From positions 1-64,000 of the forward strand of contig JAGXGS010000060.1 in NCBI GenBank assembly GCA_024636585.1: DNA of 64,000 bases. Direction: 5' to 3'. The first letter of the stretch is position 1. Each line of letters starts with the position of its first letter. Shown here piece by piece: positions 2,362-6,228 of this stretch. The notes below the pieces were generated by a model that had not been told where the DNA came from, did not search any database, and saw only the letters and a program-made list of their open reading frames with translations. The translations under genes and the position numbers were made by a program. The DNA is from Thiogranum sp. Its GTDB lineage: Bacteria > Pseudomonadota > Gammaproteobacteria > DSM-19610.

Positions 2362-3333
2362 ATGAATCCATTTAATTATATTGGCTGGTCCGGATTGCGA
2401 AAGCTCCTGAACCAGTCGCTGGCGGAGCGGGGGACAGGGCTCAGTCAGCACGCCGACATTCGCGCGCGGGTGGAGCAGGTGGTCGATGGCACCGATGCCC
2501 GCATCCGTCTGGTCAGTGGCTATCGGAAAAAGCTGCGCGGAGTGGTGGAGGGCGCCCTTGATTATGCTGACTCTGTAGTCGCGCAAATCCCGCCGGCCAT
2601 CGAGATCAGTCGGCGCAGTTTCGGTGCTGACCCACATGTGAACGCCTTTTTCGCGAGGTTTGCAGAGGTCAGGGAGATGATCCGCCACAGCTCCGAGATG
2701 CAGGAGTTTCTGGGCGACAGTGGCGGTGCAGACATGCCCTCTTGCTACGCCCTGATGTGCATGCATAAAACGGAAAGAACCGTGATGGGCATGGAGTTGT
2801 CGGGTGATATCGTGAAGAGGGATGTAGCACAGGTCGCGGTCGGTTTTTCCGGACAGAGGCTCTATTCGCCCGCCCCGAGCGAAGCCGAAGTGCGGGAAGG
2901 TTTGAAAGACTGCCTGTTCACCGGTCTGATGACCAGTGCACTCGAGCGTATTGTGCAGTCGAGACATGCAGGCGAACGTCTGCGCAGTCAGCAGCAGATC
3001 CTGAATGCGCGCCTGCTGCGCTTGCAGCGCGAGCGGAACACGGACAGCGCTGCAGAGATACGCAGCATTCAGCAGGAACTGCAGGTATTGGAGCAGAAGC
3101 TGGCTGCCGCCCCTCTGGTTACGCCGCAGCAATCGCTCGAGTTCGTAAAAGAGGTCTTCAGTAATCCGGAAGCCTTTGTCAGAATCAGCAACAGCGTGCT
3201 CAGGCTCAACAAGATGGGTATAAAGATCCCCGAGGATTCAACCCAACCCGGCAATCAACTCGAACTGACCGAAGTGACTATCGGAAACGAGCAACCAAGA
3301 ATCGTCACACTGGTAAATTTGGGGTCAGAGTAA
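2362..3333 (+). CDS. Hypothetical protein with C-terminal coiled coil
   Basis: I do not recognise this 323-residue protein. It has no signal peptide or membrane segment and is probably cytoplasmic. Residues about 195-255 are rich in Arg, Gln, Glu and Leu with heptad-like spacing (QQQILNARLLRLQRER), suggesting a coiled coil. A central part contains three Cys (CYALMCMHK and a later Cys). The last six residues, VNLGSE, and the stop are encoded by the left arm of an inverted repeat, so the native C-terminus may have been replaced when the repeat arrived. The gene is divergent from the ADP-ribosylglycohydrolase and convergent with ppc, so it stands alone. The ATG at 2362 follows a GGGGGTC element. 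Confidence 0.75.
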   Translation: MNPFNYIGWSGLRKLLNQSLAERGTGLSQHADIRARVEQVVDGTDARIRLVSGYRKKLRGVVEGALDYADSVVAQIPPAIEISRRSFGADPHVNAFFARFAEVREMIRHSSEMQEFLGDSGGADMPSCYALMCMHKTERTVMGMELSGDIVKRDVAQVAVGFSGQRLYSPAPSEAEVREGLKDCLFTGLMTSALERIVQSRHAGERLRSQQQILNARLLRLQRERNTDSAAEIRSIQQELQVLEQKLAAAPLVTPQQSLEFVKEVFSNPEAFVRISNSVLRLNKMGIKIPEDSTQPGNQLELTEVTIGNEQPRIVTLVNLGSE

Positions 3334-3398
3334 AAACTCCGCTCTCAGTAGCGCCAAACCATCGCAGAGGATAGATTTTACTCTGACCCCGAATTTAC
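3313..3398. repeat. 86-bp inverted repeat (GGGGTCAGAGTAAAA type)
   Basis: The left arm (3313-3335) and right arm (3376-3398) are 23 bp each, complementary at 22 of 23 positions, and separated by 40 bp. The core GGGGTCAGAGTAAAA is a motif I associate with dispersed palindromic (REP/MITE-like) elements in proteobacterial genomes, some of them linked to Y1-type transposases. That link is from memory, not shown here. The element sits between two convergent genes. Its left arm starts exactly on a codon boundary and supplies the end of the upstream CDS; its right arm ends 4 bp before the ppc stop. It could also act as a bidirectional transcription stop, though it lacks a classical T-tract. Confidence 0.85.
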
Positions 3399-3402
3399 AA
3401 AT

Positions 3403-6228
3403 TTAGCCGGTGTTGCGCATTCCGCTGGCAATTGCGTTGATGGAGCGGAGCAGCGGTTGCAGCCAGCGATCCTGTTCTTCATTGCTGAGGCGGGTATCGC
3501 GGACGCGGCCGAGCAGGGTCACCTGTATGTGGTTCAGTGGATCGAGGTAGGGCTCGCGGCGCAGCAGCGACAGGCTGAGGACGGGGTTTTCCTCCAGCAG
3601 GAACTGGATGTTTGCGACTTCTTTCACCATCTTCAGGGTCAGGTCGTGCTCGTCGCGGATGCGGCTGTAGATTGCCTGTGCCCGCTCCTGATTTTCGGCC
3701 AGTCGCGTATAGCGATGGGCGATCTCCATTTCCGCTTTGGCCAGCGACATCTGGGCGTTGCTGAGCAGGGCGCGGAAGAACGGCCAGTCGCGGTAGATGG
3801 CGCGCAGTGTTTCCAGGTTGTCGGGATGGGCGGCGGCGAACGCCTGCAGTGCATTGCCGATGCCATACCAGGCCGGCAGTGTGTGCCGCGACTGTGCCCA
3901 GCCGAACACCCAGGGAATAGCGCGGATGGAATTCTTTGAGCGGTCCTGCTTGCTGCGGTGGCTGGGGCGCGAGCCGATGTTGAGCAGCCCGATCTCGGTT
4001 ACCGGTGTCGCCTCATAGAAGTAGTCGAGCAGGCCTTCGGTGCGATCGATGAGATCGCGGTAGGCCTGTTCGCCACGCTCTGCCAGGCCTTCCATGATGC
4101 TGGAATATTCGGTGTGCTCATCGTCATGGTCCTGTACGACATTGCGACTGGCTTTGAGGAGACCGGTGAGGCCCATGGTCAGCTCATACACAGCAGTTTC
4201 TTCATTGCTGTATTTGTACGACAGGACTTCACCCTGTTCGGTGAACTTGATCTGTCCATGAACCGTCCCTTCGGGTTGCGACAGGATCGCATCATGGGTG
4301 GGGCCGCCGCCGCGGCCAAGGGTGCCGCCGCGGCCGTGGAACAGGCGGCACTGCACGTCGTGACCTGCGGTAATGCGGATGATGTTCTGCTGCGCCTTGT
4401 AGAGGTTCCATGCCGAAGCGAGGATGCCGCCGTCCTTGCAGGAGTCGGAGTAGCCGAGCATGATCTCCTGCAGATTGCCGGAGGCTTTCAATAACTGGCG
4501 ATAGACATTTTGTTCGAGCAGCATGGTCAGCACCTGCTCGACGTGCGCCAGGTCTTCGATGGTCTCGAACAACGGGCTGATGCGGATGTGGCAGAACCAG
4601 TCGTCTGCACCGCGCCGCCCGGCCAGGCCGCACAGTGACGCCAGCCACATCAGCTCCAGTACATGACTGGCATTGTGGGTCATTGAAATGACATAGGTGC
4701 CGAAGGCCTCGGCGCTGACTTCGTGGCGCATGTTGGCCATGACGTCCAGTACTTGCAGGGTTTCCGCGGTGGCTTCGCTCAGTGTGTTGCGCTGGATCGC
4801 GGGCGGCGGGTTTTCCAGTAGCTGGCACAACAGCGCGATGCGCTGCGTTTCCTCGAGCCCTGCATAATCGGGCTGCTCCGGCAACTGCCGGCACAGCTCG
4901 CTGACCGCGTCGCTGTGACGGCTGGATTCCTGACGGATATCCAGGTGCTGCAGGAAGAAGCCGAAGGTTTCCACCAGTCGCACCAGGTCCAGCAGTTCGG
5001 CGCGCGACACATTATGATCGCCATGCGATGAGAGCGACTCGTGGATCAATTGCAGATCAGCCAGAAGCTCCTGTTCATTGTCATAGTGCGCCGGGAAATC
5101 TTCCGCCCTTATCTCGTTTCCATGCTCGATGCGCTGGTTGGTCAGCTCCAGGTTCTGCCGCAATCGATTGCGCATTATGTAGAGCTTTCGTCGATAGGGC
5201 TCGTGTGAAAACCGGTTCGGGTATTCGCCGATGATATCCGGAAACTCGCGCAGGTCCTGTTCGAGGCGTTCAGTGAAAGCCTGGCTGGGCTGTATCAGGC
5301 GGCTGGAATAGGTGAGCTTACTGCGCAGCTCATCGACGCGACGCAGGTATTCGTGCAGCACTTCGCGCATGTGCATTCGCAATGCGAATTCGGTGGTAGC
5401 GGGTTTGACGAACGGATTGCCGTCGCGGTCGCCACCGATCCAGGAACCGAATTGCAGCAGTCCGGGCACTTCCAGTTCGACTTCGCCATAGGTGCGGCGC
5501 ACTGATTTTTCCAGGTAACGGTAAACACGTGGCACCGCCTGGAAGAGGCATTCGCGGAAATAGAACAGGCTGTTGCGGATTTCGTCTTCGACGCTGGGTT
5601 TGTGCATGCGCACTTCGTCGGTCTTCCAGAGTATCTGCACCTGACTGCGTAGCTCACTGATGATTTCTGCGCGTTCGAGGCGGCTCAGCCGTGTTTGATC
5701 GAGTCTTTCCGCAGTGACGAAAATGCTGCGCAGGTTATGCATGACTGCGCGGCGTTTCGACTCGGTCGGATGCGCGGTAAATACCGGCAGGTACAGAGTG
5801 CTGTTCAACAGTGTCTGTATCTGTTCGACATTGATATCCGAGGCATGAAAATCGCGCATTGTGTGATCGAAGGAACCGATCCACAGCGGACCGCCTTCGC
5901 GCACCCGGCGCCGGCGCTCCTTGTGCAGAAATGCTTCTTCGGCCAGATTTACCAGGCTGAAATAGAGATTGAAGGCACGTACCACATGGCCGAGGGTGTC
6001 CGGGTCCAGAGTGTCGATTTTGCGGGTAAGGCGGGCGCGCAGCGCCGGATCATCTTCGCGGCGCAGGCGAATGAAGCCCTTGCGCAGCATTTCCACGGCG
6101 GCCAGCACATCGCGTCCGGCCTGCTGCGTGAGCACTTCACCGAGCAGATTGCCGAACAGGCGCACGCGCGAGCGCAATGCCTTGTCCCGGGTTCGTATTG
6201 ACAGGCTTTGTTTCACTGGCATATCCAA
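3403..6228 (-). CDS. ppc: Phosphoenolpyruvate carboxylase
   Basis: Ppc carboxylates phosphoenolpyruvate with bicarbonate to oxaloacetate, refilling the TCA cycle. The 941-residue length fits the bacterial enzyme (about 880-950). The catalytic His segment TAHPTESKRR is near residue 150. Later come GYSDSCKDGG, then LFHGRGGTLGRGGGPTHDAI, which forms the mobile loop and active site. The C-terminus ends RNTG, the conserved tetrapeptide that completes the active and allosteric region. It is transcribed as a single gene on minus, downstream of glgA, with a perfect TATAAT about 65 bp upstream of its start. Confidence 0.98.
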   Translation of the reverse strand: MDMPVKQSLSIRTRDKALRSRVRLFGNLLGEVLTQQAGRDVLAAVEMLRKGFIRLRREDDPALRARLTRKIDTLDPDTLGHVVRAFNLYFSLVNLAEEAFLHKERRRRVREGGPLWIGSFDHTMRDFHASDINVEQIQTLLNSTLYLPVFTAHPTESKRRAVMHNLRSIFVTAERLDQTRLSRLERAEIISELRSQVQILWKTDEVRMHKPSVEDEIRNSLFYFRECLFQAVPRVYRYLEKSVRRTYGEVELEVPGLLQFGSWIGGDRDGNPFVKPATTEFALRMHMREVLHEYLRRVDELRSKLTYSSRLIQPSQAFTERLEQDLREFPDIIGEYPNRFSHEPYRRKLYIMRNRLRQNLELTNQRIEHGNEIRAEDFPAHYDNEQELLADLQLIHESLSSHGDHNVSRAELLDLVRLVETFGFFLQHLDIRQESSRHSDAVSELCRQLPEQPDYAGLEETQRIALLCQLLENPPPAIQRNTLSEATAETLQVLDVMANMRHEVSAEAFGTYVISMTHNASHVLELMWLASLCGLAGRRGADDWFCHIRISPLFETIEDLAHVEQVLTMLLEQNVYRQLLKASGNLQEIMLGYSDSCKDGGILASAWNLYKAQQNIIRITAGHDVQCRLFHGRGGTLGRGGGPTHDAILSQPEGTVHGQIKFTEQGEVLSYKYSNEETAVYELTMGLTGLLKASRNVVQDHDDEHTEYSSIMEGLAERGEQAYRDLIDRTEGLLDYFYEATPVTEIGLLNIGSRPSHRSKQDRSKNSIRAIPWVFGWAQSRHTLPAWYGIGNALQAFAAAHPDNLETLRAIYRDWPFFRALLSNAQMSLAKAEMEIAHRYTRLAENQERAQAIYSRIRDEHDLTLKMVKEVANIQFLLEENPVLSLSLLRREPYLDPLNHIQVTLLGRVRDTRLSNEEQDRWLQPLLRSINAIASGMRNTG

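Follow-up and report, generated by a model that had tools for sequence, protein, structure and literature searches.

A dispersed inverted repeat forms the C-terminus of a protein gene convergent with ppc in a Thiogranum genome

The last six codons and the stop codon of a gene for a 323-aa protein in a Thiogranum sp. MAG are the sequence of a palindromic repeat that lies between this gene and ppc. Sequence comparisons make it very likely that this element of about 86 bp is a paired copy of a TIR family spread by a Y1 (HUH) tyrosine transposase of the RAYT/TIRYT type, and that its arrival, or a rearrangement, joined the 3' ends of both genes, with loss of the original tail of the 323-aa protein. 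The replacement of a C-terminus by a mobile repeat is a good new example of an already known type of event. By the window we mean the whole stretch of DNA that was analysed (64,000 nucleotides, positions 1 to 64,000 of contig JAGXGS010000060.1). Its relevant features are:

2362 to 3333, plus strand: gene for the 323-aa protein (P0001), family unassigned, natural C-terminal tail missing
3313 to 3333, plus strand: final six codons (VNLGSE) and TAA stop, left-arm sequence (from arm overlap, homologue alignment and element edge)
3313 to 3398, no strand: whole inverted-repeat element, a paired TIR-type palindrome (from arms, shuffles, fold and conservation edges over 172 pairs)
3313 to 3335, plus strand: left arm, with the core GGGGTCAGAGTAAAA at 3321-3335
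3336 to 3375, no strand: spacer of 40 nt (11-nt cores 48 nt apart)
3376 to 3398, minus strand: right arm (core: 3376-3390, same strand)
3403 to 6228, minus strand: ppc (phosphoenolpyruvate carboxylase), conserved C-terminus GMRNTG intact

Results

The left arm of the element reads GTAAATTTGGGGTCAGAGTAAAA and the right arm, reverse-complemented, GTAAATTCGGGGTCAGAGTAAAA. The arms are 23 nt each and identical at 22 of 23 positions; according to an inverted-repeat tool they reach 33 nt at 85% identity. Folded as single-stranded DNA, the element has an energy of -25.3 kcal/mol, compared with -7.2 +/- 2.3 kcal/mol for shuffles (z = -7.8). A preliminary description, made from the letters of the DNA, had reported the coordinates, the arm match and the 40-nt spacer, and each proved exact on re-measurement. 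The same is true for its statements that the left arm starts at a codon and encodes VNLGSE-stop (codon 318 begins at 3313), and that the right arm ends 4 bp before the ppc stop (the gap is 3399-3402). Repeats can break or mis-join short-read assemblies, but a chance inverted repeat or an assembly artefact is extremely improbable in this case: GGGGTCAGAGTAAAA is present twice in the window at up to two mismatches, while such a pair of sites was seen in 0 of 100 shuffles, the element is located inside a contig of 73.6 kb, and the same architecture is found in many independently assembled genomes.

According to the preliminary description, a mobile palindrome had given the 323-aa protein a new C-terminus. 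Read from 3313, the codons are GTA AAT TTG GGG TCA GAG TAA, which translates to VNLGSE-stop. Outside the core, conservation (RRAWANNT before GGGG) spans 8 nt and then falls to zero over 172 pairs, which places the edges of the element at 3313 and 3398; therefore, all six codons and the stop are repeat sequence. Profile searches (Pfam and NCBIfam among them) found no family for the protein. Its homologues (ten of ten aligned, 31-47% identical) do not end in VNLGSE, but all differ after RIVTL and run on past this position, typically with [RF/RY]PRxEL and a short tail. Within this motif, the P is almost invariant in the alignment. P0001 carries VNLGSE-stop in place of this conserved tail, in agreement with the proposed new C-terminus. 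Neither the spacer nor the 4 bp preceding the ppc stop contains the lost tail; with ppc ending 4 bp past the element, it does not follow further on either.

One of the three reading frames of the arm contains GSE-stop (GGG TCA GAG TAA). Of 367 arms, 16 (4.4%) provide the end of an ORF with a length of 100 aa or more; for TAA/TAG triplets picked at random from the same loci, the share is 4.0%. As arms end ORFs no more often than these triplets, stop donation is best read as a by-product, and we rejected it as a favoured or selected role of the repeat; it is probably incidental, depending on where an element happens to land. The ends of GTAG REPs are described as often supplying stop codons to adjacent ORFs (PMC3733652). 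The arm-ended ORFs that belong to known families encode an AMP-binding enzyme (L073), a CorC-like protein (L074), an S49 peptidase (L147) and an amidohydrolase (L001). The amidohydrolase (295 aa, contig C4 of the Thiogranum MAG, stop next to 6058) ends with AFWGSE-stop from a degenerate arm, and is the second example in this genome of a C-terminus from the same repeat family.

The preliminary description had suggested a genome-wide search for the palindrome, and the repeat turned out not to be unique. Pattern searches of the MAG (2.6 Mb, 83% complete) gave 13 exact copies of the 15-mer GGGGTCAGAGTAAAA, against none in a reversed control, and nine further sites at one or two mismatches, against one in the control. 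Inverted pairs are present on contigs C4 (9266/9324), C15 (25256/25312) and C88 (2367/2393 and 3711/3737), in addition to the window copy; the remaining copies are single arms. Two copies (G000:C12:5477 and G000:C15:25256-25326) are only 31-70 bp away from contig ends, which is consistent with the idea that the repeat breaks the assembly and hides longer, transposase-bearing copies.

Outside this genome, the exact 15-mer was found in seven others from a sample of 56 relatives. The paired form, defined as inverted 11-nt cores with 17-56 nt between them, is present in at least 119 stretches according to a scan of GTDB genomes. Among the matches listed, nearly all are from Gammaproteobacteria, one is from Betaproteobacteria, and a few are labelled only Proteobacteria. 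Rheinheimera and Seongchinamella are examples of repeat-rich genomes. Orthologous intergenic sites in related species carry the repeat in some cases and lack it in others; the intergenic differences are messy, and no exact insertion footprint was found at the sites compared.

The length of the spacer is largely genome-specific and quantised, with for example 45, 27, 21-22 or 48 nt between the cores. The 48 nt of the window copy represent a length class that is also seen in other family members, and the spacer sequence has no match among the spacers of the other copies in its genome. In the 27-nt class, the tip of the stem varies with compensated changes (T-A, G-C or C-G at one position), 99.7% of the cells are paired, and covariation exceeds that of all 500 shuffles; since the rows are related and the arms have possibly been homogenised by conversion, these data show that symmetry is kept, not how. 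Most pairs of the two congeners G006 and G012 have a second arm variant, GGGGTCAGAGTACTTGA(A/T), in place of the AAAAACTC variant.

In congeners, inverted copies of the motif enclose Y1_Tnp genes at five loci, which are distributed over four contigs (from G001, G007 with two genes, G012 and G003). The brackets are:

L171, 965+/1885-: one mismatch at right
L173 and L183, 1150+/3056-: same contig, two transposase genes inside, one mismatch at right
L176, 1143+/1936-: motif on both sides
L179, 1132+/1936-: one mismatch at right

This bracketing in congeners and the dispersed family both support the mobile palindrome of the preliminary description. The Y1-type transposase that it had proposed to look for is thus found with the motif in congeners, but not in the MAG itself (83% complete), which has two Y1 genes, neither of them flanked by the motif and one cut by a contig end. 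The bracketed transposases are about 230-246 aa long and have extra C-terminal sequence, with Y1_Tnp as the sole Pfam domain recognised. The four proteins that were scanned reached 66-78 bits for NCBIfam REP_Tyr_transpos, compared with a cut-off of 80. In G012 (L176), the transposase unit has GGGGTCAGAGTACTTGAT (the ACTTGAT variant) at both ends. Dispersed pairs of this genome mostly have the same ACTTGA arms as the transposase ends (11 of 13 listed). An enzyme that disperses its own ends would be expected to leave just such a cognate relation. On contig 100 of G003 (L179:1126-1866), the bracketing repeat itself supplies the codons for the end of the transposase, FYSDPE-stop. In G004 (L038/L044, L186), a related motif, GGGGTCAGAAT, and a gene for a Y1 transposase come after a paralogue of the 323-aa gene.

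The window element sits between the 323-aa gene and the convergent ppc. These two genes are found together (within about 1.5 kb) in none of the congener loci examined, so that the junction is, in this sample, specific to the window genome. No clean empty site for the window copy was found, the nearest relatives having only about 47% protein identity over the 323-aa gene.

The preliminary description had also considered a two-way stop between the convergent genes. As RNA, the element forms a strong hairpin in either direction (z -8.1 and -6.6 for the two strands), but no T-run follows the stem on either strand (the plus-strand sequence there is AAATTTAGCC), and a terminator scan gave no match for an intrinsic terminator at the palindrome, which speaks against this role. 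The palindrome could nevertheless be a bidirectional intrinsic terminator or an mRNA 3'-end stabiliser under selection, with its likeness to the other copies due to reuse of a terminator sequence. The site between convergent genes and the very stable RNA hairpin on both strands would be in line with this view, as would the convergent or downstream placement that is described as typical of REP-like repeats (PMC3733652). However, terminators do not explain the copies that bracket transposase genes or those that consist of single arms, and with the U-tract missing on both strands we consider such a function quite unlikely. An effect of the hairpin on mRNA ends is possible.

Discussion

Our data point to a model in which a transposase gene would be bracketed by inverted copies of the repeat, and the short copies that lack the gene would be inverted pairs. 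Such pairs would fold into a long single-stranded DNA hairpin which, judging from the literature, is the type of substrate used by these enzymes. A copy would have inserted at the 3' ends of the 323-aa gene and ppc, or a rearrangement through a copy would have joined them. The 323-aa gene would have lost its conserved tail, and an arm frame would then have supplied GSE-stop. We infer that a TIRYT moved the window copy, presumably by single-stranded transposition, and that the tail was probably lost in the same event that brought the element. Some observations do not favour this model: neither Y1 gene of the MAG is flanked by the motif, the window copy has no clean empty counterpart, orthologous sites elsewhere show untidy differences in place of precise insertions, and the window spacer differs from those of the other copies in its genome.

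The junction is compatible both with an insertion accompanied by a deletion and with recombination between resident copies. The latter is a variant of the same explanation in which only the final step is different: two resident copies, one downstream of each gene, would have recombined, and the palindrome would mark the breakpoint of the rearrangement. We regard this variant as possible, if somewhat unlikely. Two observations fit such an exchange: no congener locus examined has the 323-aa gene next to ppc, and the missing tail is absent beyond the element, with ppc ending 4 bp after it. On the other hand, there is no trace of two parental junctions, and a single insertion with a deletion would also leave one element with matched arms.

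A paired copy dispersed by a TIRYT-like enzyme, the explanation that we prefer, finds several parallels in the TIRYT/TIRtron systems. The sequence GGGGTCAG in both window arms fits the TIRYT TIR consensus GGGGWSAS (Di Nocera et al., 2013, PMC3733652), Y1 transposase genes of congeners are flanked by inverted copies (none such were seen in the MAG itself), the repeats are scattered both singly and in the form of inverted dimers, and a repeat overlaps the 3' end of a transposase gene (L179, FYSDPE). TIRYTs probably belong to subclass 2.1 as described by Quentin et al. (2018, PMC6006769), who report a C-terminal HTH/DnaA-like domain for transposases of this subclass; in the bracketed transposases, no such domain was detected by Pfam at E<=1, and they are candidate members of the subclass. 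A repeat family with quantised spacers and a wide gammaproteobacterial spread is not spelled out in the main text of the TIRYT papers cited here, and a literature search with the exact 11-mer led mainly to papers on other subjects, in which it seems to be part of primers.

REPINs and GTAG REPs, which are described as mobilised by RAYTs (PMC3116915, PMC2817692), are similar in having two short inverted repeats around a spacer that form one long single-stranded DNA hairpin, and also in their many copies, associated Y1 transposase and stop codons for flanking ORFs. The window repeat is not a GTAG REP, because its foot is GGGG(TC) rather than GT[AG]G; its tag is GGGGTCAGAGTA. It further differs in that a single arm has at most a weak 4-bp stem, and in its low copy number in its own genome (13 exact cores). 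With MITEs, the elements share their shortness, the absence of coding sequence, and terminal inverted repeats in common with a transposase-bearing element, but no target-site duplication was seen here, the transposase is a Y1 HUH and not a DDE enzyme, and the short spacers are mostly not conserved.

It is conceivable, though in our view rather doubtful, that a TIRYT-driven palindrome family, present in many gammaproteobacteria, repeatedly gives rise to new C-termini (GSE-stop) and to breakpoints for rearrangements between convergent genes. If this were true, the family would shape proteins, beyond decorating intergenic DNA. TIRYT TIRs are little studied and only briefly described in the literature cited here, and the present case ties them to a concrete effect on a protein, the loss of a conserved tail and the gain of one encoded by a repeat. 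For annotation, this would mean that in such genomes the ends of proteins with a final xxGSE may stem from the repeat.

With its genome-specific, quantised spacers and its compensated stems, the family is well suited for testing recognition by the transposase. Two orthologous sites illustrate how copies can differ. At one of them (L058:1698 compared with L115:5094), the hairpin loop appears inverted, as if the spacer had been flipped between the arms. At the other, in two related species (L080:7120 and L061:3467), the spacers belong to different classes, with 20 and 45 nt between the cores, which suggests that elements were exchanged or replaced.
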